DNA of 64,000 nt from Zopfochytrium polystomum. Lineage: Eukaryota > Chytridiomycota > Chytridiomycetes > Chytridiales > Chytridiaceae. The translations under genes and the position numbers were made by a program. The stretch lies in contig JAIVFJ010000178.1 of NCBI GenBank assembly GCA_025765615.1, positions 1-64,000 of the forward strand, in the 5' to 3' direction. The notes beneath the pieces are model-generated. The model searched no databases. It saw only the letters and a list, made by a program, of their open reading frames with translations, and had not been told where the DNA came from. Of the stretch, positions 20,233-59,375 are shown piece by piece (positions within the stretch are counted from its first letter, which is position 1; every line of letters begins with the position of its first letter).

Positions 20233-21510
20233 ATGTTGTCCAACCTAAACTCGTTTGTTGGCACGTTCACTGGCAAAACACTGACGGAATTCAATGACTT
20301 TATTAGCAACCTTCAGATCAAGGTTATTGGTGAAAAGGGAATTCAGGACCTAACGCAGAGGACCTATTCCCTCTTGAGAGACCTTTCTGCAATGAGGAGG
20401 CCCACCATACGTACGTCACACACCTACCCAAGGATCAGTGGGACGGATGGCGTTTCTGGTTGCACTGTCGAAATGGTGGGCACAGCACACCAGAGCCAAA
20501 GGCTGGTGAAACACTCTCACCAAACTATCACTATGTACTGACTGTCGCTGAGCAAGCTAATGCTGGACTAGTTGTGGCTGTCGAAGCAACTGTCAAGTGC
20601 CAGATTCAGCATCACATCATGACTTCATCAGAGTTCATGAATGCCGTGCTGAAGATGCATGCCACCTTCATCAAGGAGAACAAAACAGCTCAGTCAGCTT
20701 TGATGATCAGGCTTCCAGAGACCTCGCACTTGTTTGAACTCTGCTGCAACATTCACCTCTATCGAGACTGTGTGGCTGCCATTCGCCAAACATTCAACAA
20801 TGCCCGCCCATCCAGCTCGATTGATGATTTTGAAAACGGATGGTCAGGGCTGCAGCTATGCACAGACACTCAAAGCCCCTTGCATTACCAAGATCTGAAT
20901 TCTTATGTGCGCGATATTGAGCGACTTCAGCAACTATTCATCCAAGGTCATGGCCAGAACAGACTTGATGAGTTTGTATGCAAACTGCAGAGCAAACTGC
21001 GCACAGACCTCGCAGGTGGCTCAGCTCATAGTCGTTTTGGACCATTTGTGGCAGCACTTCAAAACAATGATGCCTGCTTCAACAATCTACAGAATATCAT
21101 GGATGAGCTTACTGCTGTCTTGACTGCCCTTGAGGCAGATGAAGAGGAAGACTGCAGGAACTGCCGCAACAACCGCAACTGGGGTCAAGTGGGCAACAAC
21201 CACCGTGACAACCATGACGATCGCAAGGATAGACGCCACCAAAGTGACCACATCCAAGGAGGCTGCAATGACCTTGAGCAAGCAGAATGAAACTATCGCC
21301 AAGGAAGCAACTGCAGGAACAATGACAACAGGGGTCACAACATCCATGACAACCACAACCGCTCTTGGTCCCCTCGTTGTGGGGATAGGCCACGCTACTG
21401 GTGCGGTTACCACAAGGCATACGTTCACCACATGGAAAGGGACTGTCGTGACCACCGCAAGCCAGGAGTCACCCATAGGCTGGAGCCAAAGGCTACTTCA
21501 ATCCATTGAC
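20233..21510 (+). pseudogene. copia gag with Cys/His-rich C-terminal part
   Basis: Starts at an ATG (MLSNLNSFVGTFTGK), shifts frame near 20400, and continues as a gag-like helical protein. It ends in an Asn/Arg/His-rich nucleic-acid-binding region with a CxxxxH-type cluster (WCGYHKAYVHHMERDC), comparable to the CCHC knuckle. TGA codons at 21288 and 21507 break it. Confidence 0.7.
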
Positions 21511-21559
21511 GTCTTGGAGGAGTTGAAGGCACCGGGTTCAAGTTCTGTGCAGAGATTCC

Positions 21560-23616
21560 AAGCTTGGCCACCAACGCACACACACACAAATCTGAGCACT
21601 GCCTGCACATGCGCCGAGCCAATGCCATCTCAGCCAGGCTCCAAGTGCAGCACTTCACACCAGCTCAACCAAACCATGCTTCAGCCTCAGCAACTGTGGC
21701 TGTACCACGAGTAATTCTTGTTCCTTTCTCTGGATTTCACCCTCAACCTGCTACAGGAGGGCCATCTGTTTCTTCTTCTTCTCAAATAAACGGTCCCTCT
21801 CGCTTCTACTTCTTTGTGAACACTGAAACAGTGAGCACGTCACACACAGGCATAGCCTCTCTTCCGTACGTGATTGATTCTGGAGCTGTACCTACAATGA
21901 TCCCACAATGGGAACAATTCACTGAGTACCAACAATTTGAAACCGAACACCATGCCCACCTGGCAGATGACCATGAATGCTGCATCGAAGGAATTGGATC
22001 TGTCACTCTCACTTTTCCTGGTTTTGATGTGGTGCTCCGCAATGTGCTTCATGTCCCATCACTCAAGGAACTGCTCCTCTCTGTGTCGCATGTCCTCCAA
22101 GACCCAACTGCTGGGATGCTATTCACTCAAGATTCTGTCTTTCTTCTTGATCTTGCTACACTTGCATCACAACACAGCATCAAGATTGGCGAACGACGTG
22201 ACAGCCTTTACTATCTCATTCCAGTCCAGCACCCAACTGCGCAGAGGAAAATTTCAGTTGAGCCCATTGCCTACGCATCACCAGCAACTGCACACGACCT
22301 ATGGCACTGATGTTTTGGCCACATCCACTGAGAGCAAGTACGCAACACTCTCAAGTCTGGTGATGTCGACAGTGCTCCTGCTCTGCCACCAACAACACGC
22401 AAGCCTTGCCTCATTTGTGATATGGCAAAGATGCGCCAGCAACACTTCATGGCCAAACCTCGTTTTGATTTTGCCCCACTGCAGATGCTGTGTACCGACC
22501 AAACTGGAAAGATCAGTACACGTTCTCTTGACGGTTCCAACTACTTTGAAGTTATTGTTGACTACGCCACAGGCTATACTTGGGTCAACACTCTCGCTCG
22601 CACAGCAGGCGTCACTCAAAGGATAATTGATCGCATTGATTTTGAAGAGCAACTCTTCCCCACTCGTCAAACTCTATTTGTACAGGCAGACAACCTCGGT
22701 CTTAACACTCAGCAATTTGAGGCCTACTGTATCAACCACCAACCTCCCATTGTCTTTCAGCCTTCTGTCCCTTATGTCAAGGAGGGTGATGGTGTTACAG
22801 AAAATGCCATCAAGGTCATCACCCACATTGCTTCCTGTCTCCTGATCGAAGCCCAGCTTCCACGGTTCTTCTGGTCCTACGCAATATGCCATGCTTCATT
22901 CCTGTGCAATCGTGTGGAACACACTCGCACTGGTCGAATTCCATTTGAATATTACCAAGGCTGAAAACCCAACCTACACCACCTTGGAATTTTGGCTGCC
23001 TCATTGTCACACTCAACAATGAGTATACAGAACCTGCAAACTCACACAAGACCAAGTTCTCCCCGCAGGCCTCACTTGGACTCTTCTTGGGTTTCGACAC
23101 AGACAGCGAGTCTATTGCCCTCAGCTACGACTTTACTGCACAGACTATTCTTTGGACACTCCACTATAACTTGCATGAGCATGTCTTTCCTGGCCTTGTC
23201 TGCAGTGACACTAAGCTTCAATCTCGTAATTCTGATTTCTTAACTTCTCTCTCTGATGATTTTACGGATTTTCCTGAAACTGACGACTCTCCTTCTTTTG
23301 AGCCTGTTGAGCCACCACTTGACTCTTACCGTCGATTATCCAACTCTCCTCCTGACGGTGCTCCCTCCACTTGTACTCGCCAGCAACTGCGCCAGGCTTC
23401 TGGGGGGGGACAGCCGCAATCATCATCAACAAACTCCTCAGATCAACCTCCAACTCTTCCCCAAGATATGGAAGACGATAATGATGATGACGACTATGGT
23501 TGGAACCCTGACACATTTGGTGTTGTCCTGGGCAAAGATGAAGATGAACCTGAAGAGAGCCTAGCTCCAACGGCAGACCGCATAGCAGCATCCATCAACA
23601 CTGAAACCTGTCATTG
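21560..23616 (+). pseudogene. copia protease and integrase
   Basis: The retroviral-type protease site VIDSGAVPTM is near 21870. The pre-integrase motif LWH-x-CFGHIH is split by TGA at 22308. The integrase core follows with CTDQTGK, FVQADNLGL and GVTENAIK carrying the three catalytic acids (D, D, E). A further TGA at 22962 falls where GRKPN-type sequence is usual. An acidic linker (DDNDDDDYGW) precedes RT. Confidence 0.85.
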
Positions 23617-25888: not shown

Positions 25889-26949
25889 ACCTCTGATAGG
25901 TGAAGAGACAGACATACATTGTCTCTCATCCACAGTCTCAACTTCATCTTTCGCCCACAGGGTATTCCCTTCATGGGGCTGGTGGCACGGCAAATGGGTG
26001 AGACAGGCACTCCACGACTCCCCTGCAGTCACTTCCGCTGCGCCAAGGCTCCTTCATGGGACCACTTTTGTGACAGCTCTGCCTACACCACCGACTCACA
26101 TTGCTCCTTCATTGTGACATGAGATAAATCCACCAGATAAAAATAGCCTGGCTGGATAGTTGGTTAATTGCTTCGCACTTTGCAACCTACCACATACCCT
26201 GAACACCCTGTAAAAGGCTAATTTACTGGCTCCCTCTTGCCACACTCCAAATCAAAATCAAAACAAAACTCGCGAGTTGCATGGCCCTCCAATTTCGCTG
26301 ATTTGTTGACACAGGCAGAACTGATCAGTTAGTAGCAAGACGCACGGTGGCGAGAGGGAGACCCCAGCACTGGCTGAAAATATTGATGAGAACTCTCTCT
26401 GGAGGAGGTGGAAAGAGAAAGCCTGCGGTGCAAATGGCTTTTCTTCCGGCAGGTGAAGTTAGAAGAATAGAGTGTTCCCCCCAGCGCAATTTGTGATACA
26501 GTTATGCCCAAATTGCACTTGGTCATTGCGGTGTTTAACTCACGATTGTCAATCAGTTACAAGTGTATCTACAACCCCAGGTTTTGCTAACTCTCCAAGT
26601 GCTGGTGGAGAAGATTTTGCAGAGTTTCAGCACAGCAAGTCTGCTTCACTTTGCATGCAAGAGTGGTCGTTGTTACGAGGGAAAGAAAAGAAAGAAAGAA
26701 AGAAAGAGGGCAGACAGTGTGAACTCGCTCGCTCGCCATCAGCCGGGATTCCAGCCGCCGCCGCTGCTGGCCTAGCTAGTAGTGTGTTGCGTTGCGAGCG
26801 AGCGCGCGCGCGTAGGGGCGAATAGGCGAAGAGAGAAAGAGAAACGGAAAGAAAGAGAGAGAGAGAGAGTGAGAGAGAGAGAGAGAGAGGCTGCCGCCTT
26901 CCACCGATCGATCGCTAGGAGACCAAAAGGCGCCGGGCACTACTGCTTG
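25889..26949. other. Right flank of the copia element, with an LTR scrap
   Basis: No gene seen. A 35-base piece at 26313-26346 (AGGCAGAACTGATCAGTTAG...) resembles the first bases of the copia LTR and may be a truncated copy. A GAAA-rich run (26683-26708) and a GA run (about 26855-26889) precede the LRR gene and form its 5' region. Confidence 0.5.
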
Positions 26950-27030
26950 ATGGACCTGCTGATCCGCCGATCGGGCCAGCGATCTTGCGATGTGTATGTC
27001 GACTACGGCCGCCGCCGCCGCCATCACCAC

Positions 27031-27063
<33 letters not shown>

Positions 27064-29517
27064 GATGGCAACAGCAACAGCAGCAGCAGCGGAGCCGAGG
27101 GCAGCGACGGTGGCTTCGAAAACGACGAAACCGACAGTGGCAACGACGGAGAAGGCCCCCGGGAGGTGGGTGGCATGCCAGGAACTCGTGGCGATGGTGG
27201 CGGCGACGTCTCTGGCGTGGGCAGCAGCAGCAGCAACCGCGAGTTGCGCGCGCTTGCGGCGAGCCTGGCCGACCCTGCATGCCCCATCTCCACGTTTGCC
27301 ATCCACTGCTCGTCTGGGCCGCCACCGCCCACCACCCTCGTCCGCGCCCTTGCCGCCAACACCACCGTACGGGCGCTCACGCTGCACATTGGCTACATGA
27401 CGGCGGACCCCGTTCCCCTGGCGAACTCCCTGGCGCGCCTGCTGGCGGCCAACACGACACTAAATTGCCTCGACGTCTCGATGGATGCAGGCCCGGCCTT
27501 TGTCGCGGCCCTCGCCGTCGGCCTGCGCGCGAACCGGTCGCTCGAGAGCTTGGCACTGCAGCTGGACGGCGACGTGAACGAGTCGCTGGCACACATTGCC
27601 GCGGCGCTGACCGCCCGCGACGACGACGGCGGCGCCCGCAGCCTCAAAAGCCTTTCGCTCGACTCGAAGCACGAGGACGCCCCCGTCGTGACCTTCTCCC
27701 ATGGCGGTGGCGGCGTCGACGGCCTTGCCCTGCTCTGGGCCGCCGTCGCCAGCACCGCCCGCATCCGGGAAGTCAGCCTGTCGGGCTTCTACTCGCTGCC
27801 GGCGTCCGACGCCGCAATGGCGAACGCGCTGCGGGGCCCAGACTCGTGCCTGACTGCAATCGCGCTCGCAAACATGTGGTTCAGCGAGGATGGGCCGGCG
27901 ATGCTTGTCCAAGCGCTCGCCAGCAACACGTCCCTGCGCTCCTTTTCTCTCGAGGTGTCCAAGGAGGGCGCCATCCAGCTCGGCGGAACGGTCGAGTACA
28001 TTGTGCGCAGCCTACTCACAAACCCGAATCTATGCTACCTGAACCTCTCTGGAAACTACATTCATCACCCACGCCTTGCCGCGCCAGTCGCAGCGCTGCT
28101 GGAGCGGCCGTCACTGACCCGGCTGCACCTCCGCTCGTGCAAGGTCGACGACGCCGGTCTAGAGACGCTTTCGGCGTCACTGGCACGCGGCACGAGCAGC
28201 ACGAGGAGCAGCAGCAGCGGGGACTGGGAAAGCGCAGTAACCCACCTGGACCTCTCCGCCAACCTCTTTGGTGCGGCCGGCGTCGCAGCGCTGGCGGCGG
28301 CGCTTGCGCAGCACCGACACCTGGCGCACCTCGATCTCAGCCGCAACGGGCTGCAGGACGACGGCGCGACGGCGCTGGCGCCGGCGCTGGCGCAGACGCG
28401 GTCGCTGACGCACCTGAACCTGGCGCACGCGCGCATCGGCCCGCGCGGCGCGACGGCGCTGGCGCGGGCGCTGGCGCGGAACACGACGCTGACCACGCTG
28501 CTGCTGGACCGCAACGACATTCGGCCGGCAGGGGCCGAGGCGCTTGCCGCCGCGCTGGGGTCCGGGGACGTCATCGGCGGCGACGACGGCGTCGGCGGCG
28601 CTGTCGGCGACGGGGCGAATGGCGGCTGGAACGCGACGCTGGTGGTGCTGTCGCTGGCGTACAACACGGCGTCAGACCAAGGCGCGGCGGCGCTGGCGCG
28701 GGCGCTCGCGCGCAACGCGACGCTGCGGCGGCTGAACCTGGCGCGCAACCAGATTGGCAACCGCGGGGCGGCGGCGGTGGCGGCGGTCGGGTTGCCGGCC
28801 AACGACACGCTGGCGGAGCTGGACCTGTCGTCGAACCGGATTCGCGACGTTGGGGCCGCGGCGATCGCCGCCGCGCTGCCGGCGTCGCGGCTTGCGTCGC
28901 TGGACCTGTCGTGGAACAAGTTTTCCGAGACGGCCGGGGCGGCGGCGGGTTCGGCGGCGGGGGTGGGGGCGGGTGGTGGTGGTGGGGGCACGCCGTTCGC
29001 GGCGGCGGTGCGGGGCAACTACACTCTGGTGGACCTGCGGCTGGCGACACTGAGCGCGACGCCGGCGGCAATCCAGGCGGCGCTGGAGCGCAATGACGCG
29101 CTGGTCGGGGTGCGGGCGCGCGCGAGCGCCGCGCTGCTGGTCGCCGCGCGGGTGCTGCTGCTGATGCCGCCGTCGTCATCGGGGACGGCGACGGCGAGGG
29201 CGGCGGCGGGGACGGCCGGCCGGCGCGCGCTACTACCGCGCGAGCTGTGGCAGCACGTATACGAGCAGCTGTGGCGCGTGACGGCGCCAGCGGGCGCGCG
29301 CATGCCGGCGCGCCGGTTCGCGGCCGTACGCGCGGCGCTCGAGGACCGCCGGTCGATCGGACGGGTGGCGCCGGCCGTGGCTGCCGCCGCCACCGGCAGA
29401 CCGGTCGGTGGTGGTGGTGGTGGTACTGGGGGCGGCGGGGAGGAGTTTTCGGAGGCGGCGCTGGTCGCGGCGTGTCTGGCGTTTCTGCGCGGGGTCGGCG
29501 GGGCCGGCGGGTCGTGA
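26950..29517 (+). CDS. Leucine-rich-repeat protein, ribonuclease-inhibitor/NLRC3 type
   Basis: Single-exon gene of 855 residues; the ATG at 26950 is the first in the open frame. After a Ser/Gly-rich lead the protein has many LRRs of the long RNI class (about 28 residues), for example LTHLNLAHARIGPRGATALA, TLLLDRNDIRPAGAEALA and ELDLSSNRIRDVGAAAIA, between about residues 95 and 700. There is no NACHT or kinase domain in the frame. The C-terminal part has Gly-rich linkers and a segment LLPRELWQHVYEQLW that recalls F-box or SOCS-like helices, which I cannot confirm. Such proteins act as binding scaffolds; the partner is unknown. The repeats are GC-rich and Ala-rich, unlike the retroelement DNA to the left. 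Confidence 0.8.
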
Positions 29518-51512: not shown

Positions 51513-54500
51513 TCAGAACTGAATCAAAGCGCTTGAACCTACTCCCACAGCGAAGATAGACTTTTTAAAGAGAAGCTGAGTGTGTCCTCGTAGCTCATTT
51601 GGAAGCCAGCAGCAAACACCGCTGGGAATATCCGTGAACCAGACCCCAGAATGGACTACAAAGTCAAAAATCAAATTCCCACCGCGAACGCCTTTCCCTG
51701 AGGAGTATTTGCTGGAGAAGTGGTGTGCCAGCGTGGGAATATTCGGTGACTTTGAGGCAAGACCACCTCCCTCCATCTCGAACGAAATTTCCTTTTTGGA
51801 AAGAGTGGCAAGATCCAAGAAAAGCTTTTTTGTTGAAGAGAATTCGTCTAAAAGCACAAAGCGCCCATCAATACTGAATAGCGGCGAAAAGTCTGTGAGA
51901 AACCTTCGGAATCTGTGAAGCTCTTGTCCAGAGGATGCATCCCAAATTATGACTGTCCTGTCATCGCTGGCAGACACAACCAACTTCCCATCTGGGCTAA
52001 ATCCAACAACATAGACACGTAACGTGTGACCCTCCAGCCTGTGCAGCTCTTTGCCAGTGGGCACATCCCAAATTCTGACTGTCTTGTCGGCGCTTCCAGA
52101 AACGACATATTTTCCATCAGGACTGAATGCAACAGAACGGATCCATAGCCTGTGTCCTTTCAGCCCGCGCAACTCCTGCCCTGTGTTTGCATTCCAAATC
52201 CTGACAGTGTTGTCATCACCTCCAGACACTACAAAACACCCATCAGTACTGAAAGCTGCTGCGAAGACAAATTCTGTGTGTCCTTCAAGCTTGCGCAGAG
52301 CCTGACCAGTAGATGCATCCCAGATCCTGACTGTCTTGTCCTTACTTCCAGACACAATATAACGCCCATCTGGACTAATTGCTACAACATTCACCAACAA
52401 AGAATGCTCCTCTGATGAGGTGAGTTCCTGGCTGGATAACACAGAAGAGACATCCCAAATTCTGACATTTTGGTCCTGACTTCCAGATACAAAATACTGG
52501 CCGCTTGGGCTGAAAGCTGCAGACATGACACTCCTCCCATGTTCAGTTGGTTTTCCTGCTTCCTTGCCAGTGGCTGCATTCCAAAGCCTCAGAGTGTCAT
52601 CATTGCTTGCAGAAGCAATCAAACGCCCGTCAGGGCTGAATTTGACGTCTCTAACACAGTCTGTGTGCCCCTCCAGCCTCCTCAGCTCCTTCCCAGAGGC
52701 TGCATCCCAAATCCTGATAGTCTTGTCAAAACCTCCAGACACAACAAAACGTCCATCAGGGCTGAAAGACGCCGCATTAACTCCTTCAGAATGTCCTTCC
52801 AGCATTTGTATTTGCCGCGCAGTGGATGCACTCCATATTCTGACTGTTCCATCATCACTCCCAGACACGATGAACCTTCCGTCAGCGCTGAATGCAACAG
52901 ATTCAACTGCGTCAGTGTGCCCCACAAGCTTGTGTATCATCTGGCCGGTGAATGTTCTCCAAATTCGGACAGTGCGGTCTCCACCTCCAGACACCAGTAT
53001 CTGTCCATCAGGACTCAATTCTGCAGAGAGTACAGGCTCATCACTCGCCTGCCACTGCTGAAACTCTCGGCCAGTGGATGTACTCCAAACTCTTATTGTA
53101 GAGTCAGAGCCTGCAGTCACAACAAAAAGCCCATCAGGACTAAACACTGCAGAGAAGACTTCCTTTGAGTGCCCCACCAATTGGTGCAGCTCTTGGCCAG
53201 TGGATGCATCCCAAATCCTGACTATTTTATCATAACCTCCAGATGCAACAAACTGGCCATCAGCGCTAAAAGCCACAGTTAAAACCCAGTGACTATGTCC
53301 TTCTAAAACATTCACACATGGTGGCCACGCTTTTGGCTGGCCTTTCACCAGTCGAGGGCATGAAACAGTTGAAGGCACCTTGCCAACAAATGTCTTGTAG
53401 AATTCAGAGTTCAGTGGTGAGAATGGAACAGCTGTGAAGTAGACTTGCAAAGCTGACGATTTCAGTGGGGTGTGAAACTTTTGGGTAACTCTTTTCATAT
53501 CCTCCATGAGGATACGCACAGAGACCAGCTCTTCTGGCACAACTTTTCGGAGCTTTGCCATAGCTGGAATTACCAGATTCAGGCAGCTCATCAGGCTACA
53601 CGCCTCCAAATAGTGATGGCCGTGGGCTTCAAGGAAGGTTGCCAGTTCAGTGAGCAAACTTGGCTCAATCATCACGAGTGGAGTGCTCAACTTCAAGGGG
53701 GCAGTCTTCAAGTTTGAAGATGGCCCACCGAATGTCGATTGCTCCTGCTTCGCAGATGGTTTCTTCTTCCCAAAGCTCCATTTCTTTAAGCCAAAAAGCG
53801 GGGTTTTCTCCTTCGACACAGACTTCGCAATGGAGCTTTTTTGGCTTGATAAGTCAATGCTTGACATTTTATCTTCATCATCCCCATGTCCAAGAAGAGG
53901 AATGGCACCATCAATGCAGTGCTCCCAAAAATGCTTCACAGCATACTTCACTTGCTCAGAAATCCCCACTTCAACCCTCTCATCGAAATCTGGAATTTCT
54001 GAATGGAAACGTGAGAATGGAAGTTCGCAAATGTTGAACTTGAGTTTCTTGTCCATTGCGTGGATGCACAATCTTGCAAACTCTGAATGGCCTCCCTTCA
54101 GCTTTATCTGGATTGAGGGAATCTTGCACCGTGATGGGCTTGTAAGGTAATCCTTCACAGATTTGTGGAAGACCCTAATCTTCTTAGTCAGTTCATCAAG
54201 TAGCAGAATAGAATCAAGCATTCGGATGCATTGCTTCACATCATCAGTTTCCGTGTCTAGGAGAGACGCCATTGCTGAGGCAGTAAGAGGCTCGTACGCA
54301 AGCACAATCACTGACAGAACAGCATGCAGCAAGCCATCCAACTTTTTCGCTTCAGCAAACTGAAGCACGCCAGAAAAGATTCTGTCATACATTTTATCGA
54401 TGCTCCCATCCATCTTGTCCCCTTCAGGAAGGTGCTTGATCTGATCCAATGTGATCATTTCTGTCTCTGAACTCTGCAAGTAGTTGCATGCAGTCACAAG

Positions 54501-56627
54501 CCAAACAAACACCCCAGAGGACTTGGCCACAAGAATCCTGGATCCCTCATCAACCACGGACTGATCGCAATTCATAGACTTCAGAAAATTCTGGGTGAAC
54601 TCAATCTGGTCCTGGGTGTTCTGCTCAGCAGTAGGCACAACCTCCTCAATCGGAATATGTTCAAATGCCTTTGCAATATCCTCTTCAGGGCGCCCAGTCA
54701 CCAGCATCTTGACACCATCAGGAAGAGCCCTGTTCAGCTCTTGAAACACAGAAAGTATTTCTTGGCGTTTGTAGATAGTGCCACACTCGTCGAGGGCATC
54801 CACAACCAAGACTACAGGCAGAGCTAGTTCCTTGTCTTGGGCAAGTTGTTGTAAAGGTTGAACAAGGAGCACTTTCATAATCTCAAAAAGAGGTCTGGAA
54901 AGAATTTCTGGATTGTCTTGCTTAGCTTGAACAAGCTTGTATCCAAAATGATAACTGAACTTTGCAAGGCCAATAACCAGCGTCAAGACCAAGTGGCGTG
55001 CACTGCTGCGGATGTCATCATCATGCTTGCAAAAGAACAAGCCGCCAAGCATACTCTGGGCCTGAAGCTCCCTGGACACCATGGCTGCCATCACAGACTT
55101 GCCCACTCCTGCCACACCTTTCAGCCACATCACCCTGTTTGCACTGGCTGCTGCTGGGTCATCCGGAGACAGAAACTGGAACACTCTTCTCAGCAGCCAC
55201 CTCCTTGAGCCTGGCAGCACATTCCTCAAAAGAGCTTGCCTCTCAATATCCATTTGCTCAGACAGTGGAGTGAGCCACTGTTGCAATTCAGCAAAGCTAG
55301 ATCTGGAAAGCGGTTTATCTGAACTTGGACGTGCAATATGCTTTTCAGCCATGCAACGACTGTAAACTTGTCTTGCTTCTGTCACAATCCTGCAGATACT
55401 TGGGTGAGCATGAAAAAAAGAATAAAAAAGCCTACTTCATCATATCACTCTCAGGATGGGCCTGGGGCCCATTCAGCTCCAGGATCTTCTTCACTGTTTG
55501 AGAAACAGATTGGCGGCCAGGACTAAGTTGATGGCAATGCGGCCGGTCTGGAAACTTGGTGTGATCAAATGTGCTGAACTTCTTGGTGACTAAAGCCTTC
55601 CTTGCATCATCTAAGGTGACCATCAAATCCTTAGAGAGTAGAACAGGTAAGATGCTGATGCCATTTTCTTCTCTCATTTGAAGGGCAAGCTCCCACTGCA
55701 GTTCCCTCTTAGTTCTGAACAAGCAACAGCAGAAACTTACTTCGAGCAAGCAATTGTCAGGGAATTTATCAGCTTCAAGCATTTTCTCCATGGCGACATC
55801 AGAGCACAGCAAAATGACAACTGAAGAGTGGAACAAGCCAGCCATGAAATTGACTTGCCACTTCTCTGCATAGGAAAGGCACTGTGAATCCCAAAAGGCA
55901 TGTAGACCATTCAATTTGGACTCTTTGGGAAGGACAGAGCCCCGGAAGTCTTTTAGGAGAGCCAACTCCATTTGATAGAAAAGGTCTCTGGCGGCATAAC
56001 TCTCAGATGCTTGGCGGTAGCTTCTCAAGAAAACCTGGTCAGTTAGGGTGGGAAAGACATGGATTGGCCAAACCTAATGAAAAACGGATGCTTCTGCACT
56101 TTTCTTTTGCACTCCCAATCGTTTGGAATCAGGTTCATCCAATGTTCTGAAGAAGGTAAGCTTGACAGTCACTGAACTTGAGGAATTGAACTTCACTGTA
56201 CCCTTCTTGTAATCAGCAGTCTCTACCAGTACATCTACGTTACCAATCACTTGACCAGGAGTACTTACAACCCCCTGTGCAACAGGTTGGTCTCCTGCAG
56301 CAGCATTTTCCAGGGTGCTGGGGTGCTGGGCAACAACAACCTGGAGTGGTGTGAGCCTTCAAAAACTTTGTGTGAAAGGAGTTAAAAACTGACCTTCCAC
56401 TTGTAATTTTGCGTAAAAAGGCTGGGCAAATCATCATCCACATCGAGAATAGTATTGTCACCAGTTGCAGAATCAACATAGACAAGATCGATTGGAACTG
56501 AAAGATTCCAGCGAGAAGCCACAAGCTGACGCAAATCCTCATGACTAGCAGAAAAGTCAACGAGAATTTTCCTGCCTATTCCCTTGAAATTGAAAGACAC
56601 CAGTGCGGTTTTGGCTCGGCCTTCCAT
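51513..56627 (-). CDS. TIR-NACHT-WD40 protein (NLR/STAND type), five exons
   Basis: Exons 56627-56394, 56340-56086 (or to 56269), 56034-55741, 55695-55436 and 55389-51513 join in phase to about 1,639 residues. Residues 1-78 look like a small beta-grasp (PB1/ubiquitin-like) fold ending VDDDLPSLFTQNYKW. Residues 164-290 match a TIR domain: VFLRSYRQASE, HAFWDSQCLSYAEKW, SSVVILLCSDVAME, DNCLLE/WELALQ with the Cys-x-x-Glu region of NADase TIRs, and ISILPVLLS. NACHT follows with Walker A GVAGVGKS (about 439-446) and Walker B LPVVLVVDALDECG (about 539-552). The C-terminal third has 11 clear WD40 repeats plus a degenerate one, ending each blade in VRIWDAS-type strands. Known relatives are signal-sensing NTPases in which ligand binding by the WD40 ring triggers oligomerisation. 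The end of exon 2 and the first ATG (another lies at 56675) are uncertain. Confidence 0.83.
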
Positions 56628-58388
56628 ATTTCCTTGAAAACACCGTTCACTGACAGTTTCTGGAGAAATCAACATTGATTAGTTCAGGAAATACTAAGCT
56701 AAACAAGGAGGAGAGATTGGGGGAGGTTGGACTGAAGTTGGTGTCAGTTTTCTCAAATCATTAAATTTTTTTTGAATGAAACTGAATTAGATGAAGCCCA
56801 GATAGAGCGGATTGATGTGCCTGTGCAAGCTCGTTGCGTTAATATCACAAACATCGGAGAGCACAACCATCACAGGAAGTGCAAACCTTCTGATTGTCAG
56901 ACTCCGATTACGCCAGTACTCGCGAACCAAATCGCAGAACTGTGTCCTTGTGTTCACCCTTGGATGACAGCAGGTTCCCAGCTCTGCGTCAGTGTTTTCC
57001 CGTTGTTCACTCTGTCCAGAGATACGGCAAGTATGATAGGAAGATTGAGAAGGCGAATCGAACCACGGGTTAGTTGAAAAATCGAGCTGGTCGCCCAGGA
57101 AGCCTCCATTGGCTGTCACACAAAACACTCACCCTCAGACCCATCGCGGACTAGGGTTGGCAGAGACAGTGGGAGAAGGATCGATCTCAAACACGGGCCA
57201 ATCGACCTCAATACCATGGAGCGTCCCAAATCCGAGGGACCATTCCGGCTGTTGCATCATTGACGGTCGCTGGGAACCAACCGACCGGCAAAGTCGGCGA
57301 ATCAAGAGGCTCACCGATCAGGAATGCTCCGGATCCGATCAGTGCGATGGACTGACTGAGTAGACTACGGGCCCTGGAAGGAGAGGGGAGGAAAGAAGCG
57401 TGGTGGAGGGGAAAGAGGGGCTTCCGGGTCGGGTGTCTCACCTTTCGGATGCGCAGTCTGTCTTTTTTTTCGATTTTTTATTTTTTATATTTTTTTTTCT
57501 TGATGTTCATTCCGTCTCACAAGACGACCCTCAAGGCAAACGCCCACTCGCTGCGCGGTGCGCACTGCCAAGATCGGACCAGCGCCATCGTGCAGCTTTT
57601 GCTCATTCGGTCAACGACGAGCAATTTTAGTTGAGTTACGCCCCACCAAGCTGCGCAGCCCCGACCGAAAATTGAAAAAAAAGGTGGTTCGAACAACGGC
57701 TTGAAAAGAAACGGAGCTTCACAGGTCCGTGAGTAACGGCCATCCCTGCGTCGCTGTCCTTTTGACAGCTGTTTCCTTCTTTGGAAGAGAATAAGCGAGA
57801 ATAAGCTATTTCCGGAAACAGCGAAGAATTATTGCGCTGGCGGTGCCTTTTTTTCTTGGTGCACAGATACAGACTCTTAACTACAAGCGGCTAAGTTCCG
57901 ATGCCGAAAAGTAAACTGTTCAACGAAGTCCCAATTCGTCTCAAGAATTTAAAAGGGATTGCCCTCGTGCATCATAATTCTCTTCGGTTGCAACAATTAG
58001 ATAACATAACGGTTCCATCCCTTCTGCCTGGGCACGGCGCAGTAGGGTGGCGAGGCGTAAGTTTTTCAGCGGTCCGGCAGGGCGAGTAAGGGCCAGATCG
58101 CGCCGCGTACAGGGCGAGGAGGACCGAGTTTGGCGAGTGCGGAGTTGCTGGTGCTGGTTTCTGGCGTTGTGTGGTGTTTTTTCGATCGGCCATTACGAGC
58201 TGCAGCTTTCTTATTCATCTTCGTCTTGTCTAGACCAGACGGGGGGCCGGAGTCGGCGTCGTAGTCGTCGTCGCCGCCGTCGGCATGTCCACACATTGCA
58301 ATTTTTAAACAGAAAGCAGTTACGTTGTGGGTTGCATTTGGCCGGCCTTGTCAAAGTAGAAACAGCTCACTTTTACCCCCACACACAG
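56628..58388. other. Intergenic between two divergent genes
   Basis: Promoters of the NACHT gene (left) and of PTPA (right) must lie here. A 63-codon frame from the ATG at 57901 (MPKSKLFNEVPIRLKNL) is followed by a GTAAGT donor near 58056 and could be a first exon of something unknown; I cannot connect it. T-runs occur at 57461-57500. Confidence 0.45.
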
Positions 58389-59375
58389 ATGAACCCGCCA
58401 CCAGCGCGATTCCCAGCGAGCCGAGCGCCCGCGACCGCATCGACGACGGCGACGGCGGGGACGGCGAATTCGAGCTTGGGCCGCGGCGGCCTCGGCGGCG
58501 GCGGCAGCTACGGTGGCGGCAGCTACGGTGGCGGCTTCGGTGGCAGCGGCGGCGGTGCCTCAACGGACTGGCGCATGCTGATGCCGCGCATGCCGCCGCC
58601 GCCGCAGCCCGCACCAGCAGCGGGCGCGGCGGGGGGAACGGAACAGCCGCCGCAGGGGGGGGCGCAGCCGCAGCTCCCGCCCTTCGCGCCGCAGCGCGCC
58701 CTCGCCCGCTTCGCGCGCCTCGCCGCCGCCTCTCGCGCCACCCTCCAGGCCACCACTACCCGCGGGAGCGACTCCCCGTTCCCCGCCGCCACAGCCGCCA
58801 CCGCCGCCGACGTCGACTCCGACGCATTCTCCTCCGACCCCTCCCCCTCCTCTTACTCCTCCCACCCGCCCCCACCGCCACCCGCAACTCCGCAAGCGCT
58901 GGCGGCCGCCCTCACGGCGCCGCCGACGCGGCGGATCCTGGACGCGGCGACGGACATGCCGCGATGGCTGCGGTCCGAGGCGCTGTCGCGGTACCTGGAC
59001 TTTGTGCAGCTGGTCAACCTGGCCGTGACGGGCAAGAAGAACGAGGACGCCCGGGCCGAGGCCGTGCCAGAGGTGAGCCGCGCTCGAGCGAATCAGCCAA
59101 TCTCAAACCTTCTGATTCGCTTCGTTTCTGCTTTTCTCTTCTTTTTTTCATTCATTTTTTTTTTTTTTTTGCGTTGCACACACAAGCGCATCGTCAAGCT
59201 GGTGGCCATGCTGGACCAGGTCGAGGCGTGGATCGCCGACATCCCGCCGCAAGAGTCCCCGCAGCGGTTCGGGAACAAGGCGTTCCGCACGTGGCACCAG
59301 CGGCTGGAGACGGTGAGAGCCGGTTTTTTTCTGCTTGCCCCTCCCCTTGTCTTCGCTCCAGTCTAACCGGTCTTC

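Follow-up and report, generated by a model that had tools for sequence, protein, structure and literature searches.

A predicted four-part receptor gene

The window analysed here, a stretch of 64,000 nucleotides from Zopfochytrium polystomum (assembly GCA_025765615.1, contig JAIVFJ010000178.1, positions 1 to 64,000), contains a gene that reads on the minus strand from 56627 to 51513. Its six exons predict a protein of 1620 residues, composed of a PB1-like segment, a TIR domain, a NACHT domain and some 11 to 12 WD40 repeats. We conclude that it is a genuine TIR-bearing fungal NOD-like receptor (NLR) with a four-part architecture.

The exon model was built from a DNA alignment of the region upstream of the NACHT domain, comprising the window and 12 paralogues; all exons are on the minus strand. 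Exon 1 (56394..56627) encodes the PB1-like (beta-grasp) domain, residues 1 to 78, and its start is uncertain, as the frame stays open upstream with another ATG. Exon 2 (56202..56340), placed by the paralogue alignment and the model, encodes a linker. Exon 3 (56074..56146), conserved in the 12 aligned paralogues, contributes the end of the linker and strand A of the TIR domain (HPFFIS). The TIR domain is continued by exon 4 (55741..56020), which runs from SYRQASE to DNCLLE and has the codon of the putative catalytic Glu, E242, as its last, and is completed by exon 5 (55436..55695), from WELALQ to MM. Exon 6 (51513..55389) carries the NACHT NTPase, a linker, the WD40 repeats and the stop codon; NACHT and WD40 repeats lie in a single open frame (51513-55436).

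The five introns are 53, 55, 53, 45 and 46 bp long, every one GT-AG. Two of the five donors are weak (GTACAG and GTTTGG), and their support comes from the paralogues. The 45 bp intron inside the TIR domain (55696..55740) is easily misread as coding, since it has no in-frame stop, but it recurs at this position in the aligned paralogues, and the insertion that its retention creates is absent from all 10 aligned chytrid proteins. The alignment also indicates that 56073-56021 is best read as an intron: exon 56146-56074 encodes a sequence ending in DWECKRKVQKHPFFI, spliced onto SYRQASE, likewise in the 12 aligned paralogues, so that the first TIR strand, FFISYR, is joined across this intron. An initial annotation of this DNA had started an exon at 56073 and read VFLRSYRQ as a TIR motif. 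That exon was discarded, SYRQ being coding and VFLR intron sequence. The joins of this earlier exon set were in phase, as proposed; it had missed exon 56146-56074, and exon 2 is longer (56340-56202) than it had supposed.

The TIR domain

Scores against the Pfam TIR_2 profile climbed with each splice correction, from 19.6 bits unspliced to 28.9 and finally 31.7 bits (E 2.5e-7), above the cut-off of 28 bits. TIR_2 was the sole Pfam match in the TIR piece at E up to 10. HET, PNP and patatin N-domains were considered and rejected, no such Pfam match being found in the pieces scanned. The profile check proposed along with the initial annotation thus upheld its TIR call, and the motifs it had listed besides VFLRSYRQ were retained: WDSQC, DNCLLE|WEL (split by the intron) and ISILPV all lie within the spliced model.

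The TIR domain of SARM1 was the top match both for the family profile, which was seeded partly by the window sequence, and for the predicted fold. The structural prediction that had been suggested as a second check therefore also pointed to a TIR domain, best resembling that of SARM1; in the structure comparison, NAD+ hydrolase (NADase) TIRs ranked highest, and those of Toll-like receptors (TLR) and adaptors lower. In the HMMER alignment E242 falls on the Glu of SARM1 at the E642 position, which we take to be the catalytic residue. The number E642 stands in the title of structure 7cm7, and a catalytic Glu in TIRs generally is backed by passages of PMC7075850. This Glu is conserved in 11 of 11 aligned TIRs and in 42 of 42 matched loci, counted with a pattern that left both the Glu and the position four residues before it free (a second match in L009, which was spurious, was excluded). 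The latter position is Asn in 40 of the 42 loci and Ser in two (L023 and L024). We regard NAD+ cleavage as likely for the family; for the window copy it is less certain.

The PB1-like segment

The beta-grasp segment, proposed earlier as a fourth part of the protein, proved homologous to paralogue segments that score as PB1. An iterated search with exon 1 as seed, and thus seeded partly by the window sequence, found segments of this type in 41 of 50 scanned loci, which overlap in part, corresponding to 34 distinct sequences. Three of four tested paralogue copies exceeded the 23.6 bits of PB1 (PF00564), with a best E of 4.7e-9, and the fourth reached 21.6 bits. The corresponding N-terminal segments of three distant chytrid proteins tested had no Pfam match over cut-off, and in the predicted model of P0007 the first 122 residues have a predicted local distance difference test score below 50. 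Chytridium lagenaria protein P0010 has a SAM-TIR-NACHT-WD40 organisation (SAM_1, E 3.7e-9). Since PB1 and SAM are both self-associating modules, we infer that PB1 may serve to cluster the TIR domains by self-association.

The NACHT domain and the WD40 repeats

The NACHT domain was confirmed as initially annotated: its GVAGVGKS P-loop and DALDE Walker B motif were located in the core (54690..55148, minus strand), and NPHP3_N (88 bits) and NACHT (30.7 bits) both exceeded their Pfam cut-offs. The C-terminal part contains 11 PF00400 stretches, in fair agreement with the 12 or so WD40 blades first counted.

Variation among repeats was analysed with 267 WD40 repeats of 42 residues from loci L009-L038, 255 of which are distinct. 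Some loci of the L009-L058 set overlap (L018/L052, L022/L054, L033/L051, L034/L036 and L037/L058), so that locus counts, and a few of the 267 repeats, are doubled. The most variable positions are 16, 34, 18, 15 and 36. According to passages of PMC1805685, WD40 codons 7, 9, 25 and 27 of Podospora are positively selected, on either side of codons 8 and 26, which are conserved. Shifted by 9, the selected codons correspond to positions 16, 18, 34 and 36, and the positions that these flank, 17 and 35, are nearly invariant here. The ratio of nonsynonymous to synonymous substitutions (dN/dS), calculated over 29 loci with the window excluded, was 2.38 at these four positions against 0.52 elsewhere; the positions were taken from the literature, and the repeat pairs were non-independent and compared with no tree. 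Across the 267 repeats, 231 distinct four-residue combinations occupy the four variable positions. Site-specific variation is thus clear in the paralogues, and weak in the window copy.

A large family in the genome

When 36 of 689 candidates were scored, the NACHT-WD40 frame was matched at least 111 times across the genome, and the matches spanning the NACHT domain were 60-73% identical to the window. TIR exons were found within 1.5 kb upstream in 27 of the 30 retrieved loci, the window's own included. The exceptions are L035 and L036, which are WD40 halves, and L030 (G000:C9:618092-620389), which has PB1 and NACHT-WD40 with no TIR found between them and is possibly a natural TIR-loss variant.

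A genome scan with NPHP3_N, in which 150 of 231 candidates were scored, gave a match for all 150, and a scan with the TIR exon, in which all 138 candidates were scored, gave 127. A TIR hit lies within 3 kb upstream of 129 of the 150 scored NACHT hits. For 91 of them it is a window-type TIR exon, which shares the strand of the NACHT hit and lies 495-806 bp upstream of it, and for 38 only a generic TIR_2, 313-2162 bp upstream; the remaining 21 have neither. Control counts of TIRs downstream of NACHT or on the opposite strand were 0 and 0. Conversely, the TIR matches include 35, out of 127, that are not followed by a scored NACHT within 3 kb. The presence of PB1 and WD40 was assessed in the retrieved loci. 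Gene numbers are approximate, since the assembly contains duplicates; L049 and L050 are identical across 3922 bases. The remark in the initial annotation that TIR is uncommon in fungi does not hold for this genome.

The NACHT hits with only a generic TIR_2 form a second group, spread over contigs C18 (six of them), C57, C98, C88, C67, C47 and others. To the eye, the frames of other genes with TIR_2 resemble Sel1-like repeats in L001, ankyrin and a protein kinase in L003, a kinase in L005, and in L008 a P-loop NTPase.

The DNA had been described as probably fungal, and rightly so: it is from a chytrid (Chytridiomycota, Chytridiales), and the first seven public relatives found were chytrid proteins, two of them from Z. 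polystomum itself (P0003 and P0004). Contamination was rejected in view of the short GT-AG introns, the paralogues on many contigs and the identity of P0003 to the same genome.

Proposed function and alternative explanations

Taken together, we consider it probable that the gene belongs to a large chytrid family of PB1-TIR-NACHT-WD40 receptors acting in cell death or defence. The WD40 propeller would recognise a self or non-self protein, and recognition would lead to nucleotide exchange and assembly of the NACHT domain. The clustered TIRs, aided by PB1 self-association, would then either cleave NAD+ or generate a nucleotide signal, upon which the cell, or part of it, would die or a defence would be switched on.

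Several observations weigh against this proposal, or against its application to the window copy. At the BB-loop position where SARM1 has Gly (LEAG), the window TIR has Ala, and 31 distinct family TIRs, the window's included, divide into 16 with Ala and 15 with Gly. Four residues before the catalytic-position Glu, all 11 aligned TIRs have Asn where SARM1 has Trp. Both of these positions lie around the pocket. Searching the PDB with the TIR sequence on its own returned no chain at E 10, Foldseek alone gave nothing at E 0.001 with the TIR model (though many of its 50 rows are TIR domains), and a search of public proteins with the TIR only gave none at E 0.001 among 307 candidates. The PB1 segment of the window, taken alone, has no Pfam match in the first 79 residues. 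Finally, the WD40 repeats of the window have diverged, with a mean within-gene identity of 0.476 against 0.82-0.86 in three paralogues, and their dN/dS at variable sites, which were chosen from the same data, is 0.84, with the proportion of synonymous differences near saturation.

The two substitutions in the TIR domain would suit a non-catalytic adaptor that signals by TIR-TIR contact, like the animal TLR adaptors, and does not cleave NAD+. We find this unlikely, given the invariant Glu and the rank of NADase TIRs above TLR and adaptor TIRs among structural matches. The diverged repeats, together with the BB-loop change, could also mean that this copy has become a relic, decaying or specialised, and no longer takes part in the recognition-driven diversification of its family. 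This seems rather improbable, as the 1620-residue model is intact with all splice sites present, and between the window repeats dN/dS is 0.26 once the variable sites are set aside, which suggests constraint. A different objection concerns the gene itself, as the region, if left unspliced, has a stop codon between the frames, and the public models of P0003 (partial) and P0004 start at or near NACHT, as expected if neighbouring genes encoded PB1-TIR and NACHT-WD40 as two distinct proteins. However, the intron at the TIR-NACHT junction is phase-correct, and three paralogues (L015, L025 and L028) have a single stop-free frame that runs from the second TIR exon through NACHT to WD40. Seven other chytrid proteins (P0001, P0002, P0005, P0006, P0007, P0008 and P0010) moreover have TIR and NACHT on one chain. 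As for P0003, it is 100% identical to L057 (contig C118) over its first 280 residues, and its model looks truncated, because the PB1 segment and the TIR exon are present in the DNA of that locus. Two separate genes, the outcome by which the initial annotation was prepared to be judged, are therefore very improbable, and the joined gene is retained.

We tentatively advance a broader reading of the PB1-TIR-NACHT-WD40 family, as rather less probable than its contrary. Chytrids would possess a plant-like TIR immune repertoire on a fungal chassis, with about 90 or perhaps more such receptors in one genome, all with hypervariable WD40 sensors. An N-terminal module that can be exchanged (PB1 here, SAM in Chytridium lagenaria) would cluster their SARM1-type TIRs, which would destroy NAD+ upon non-self or viral recognition; the HET-NACHT-WD40 proteins of higher fungi would then derive from a later replacement of TIR. 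According to passages of PMC7482067, Z. polystomum WB228 was one of the isolates from which a mycovirus survey prepared purified dsRNA for sequencing, which makes a viral trigger conceivable.

Relation to known systems

A close parallel in design is the HNWD family of Podospora anserina (HET-E, HET-D and HET-R), which also has an N-terminal death or signalling domain, NACHT and WD40 repeats; like it, the chytrid paralogues have homogenised repeats that vary at these four WD40 positions. The window gene differs in having a scoring TIR and no N-terminal HET, a domain remotely related to TIR. We know of no PB1 in the HNWD family. Passages of PMC12881547 give five HNWD genes in Podospora, compared with the 91 NACHT hits with a window-type TIR found here.

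An N-terminal TIR on a fungal NLR has itself been described. TIR in NLRs is reported for Chytridiomycota in passages of PMC9815663, citing Daskalov et al. 2020 among others, and those of PMC9815663 and PMC10197012 call fungal TIR-NLRs "a small group"; passages of PMC4986451 state that no NLRs were found in chytrids in 2014. The PB1 or SAM module and the dominance of the repertoire appear in neither account, as far as the passages of PMC9815663 and PMC10197012 go. Among the matches listed for the literature on TIR, NACHT and PB1 and on chytrid and early-diverging fungal NLRs, no published PB1-TIR-NACHT-WD40 architecture or comparable scale was found, and for PB1 with TIR and NACHT only plant-engineering work came up. 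A small group of fungal TIR-NLRs was thus known; the present one has a four-part architecture, and the dominance of its kind in one chytrid repertoire is unexpected.

Outside fungi, the window gene shares the TIR fold and the catalytic-Glu motif with metazoan SARM1, and the SAM domain that precedes TIR in SARM1 is found before TIR in P0010, there inside an NLR. It differs by the replaced BB-loop Gly and Trp, and SARM1 is not known to have NACHT or WD40. Plant TIR-type NLR resistosomes such as RPP1 and ROQ1 likewise combine a TIR, whose fold matches, with an NTPase of the STAND (signal transduction ATPases with numerous domains) class and a repeat sensor. These plant receptors carry NB-ARC and leucine-rich repeats, unlike the chytrid gene, which has NACHT, PB1 and, in place of C-terminal leucine-rich repeats, WD40.

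The receptor brings together the design of fungal allorecognition proteins, in which four sites of the WD40 repeats are selected, and a domain with NAD+-cleaving activity in animals, plants and bacteria. The gene family provides a direct route to testing NAD+ use in fungal NLR signalling. Fungi were thought to use TIR only rarely, and about 90 relatives are found here in one early-branching aquatic fungus. The results also suggest that these N-termini, interrupted as they are by introns of 45-55 bp, may be overlooked in public gene models.

Other features of the window

Upstream of the receptor gene, the first part of a gene for PTPA (phosphotyrosyl phosphate activator) lies at 58005-59366 on the plus strand. 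Two more features were noted on that strand: a fragment of a retroelement Pol at 21510-22310 (Pol_BBD, E 1.3e-15), and a long open frame at 26776-29517 with leucine-rich repeats (LRR_6, E 9.8e-39).
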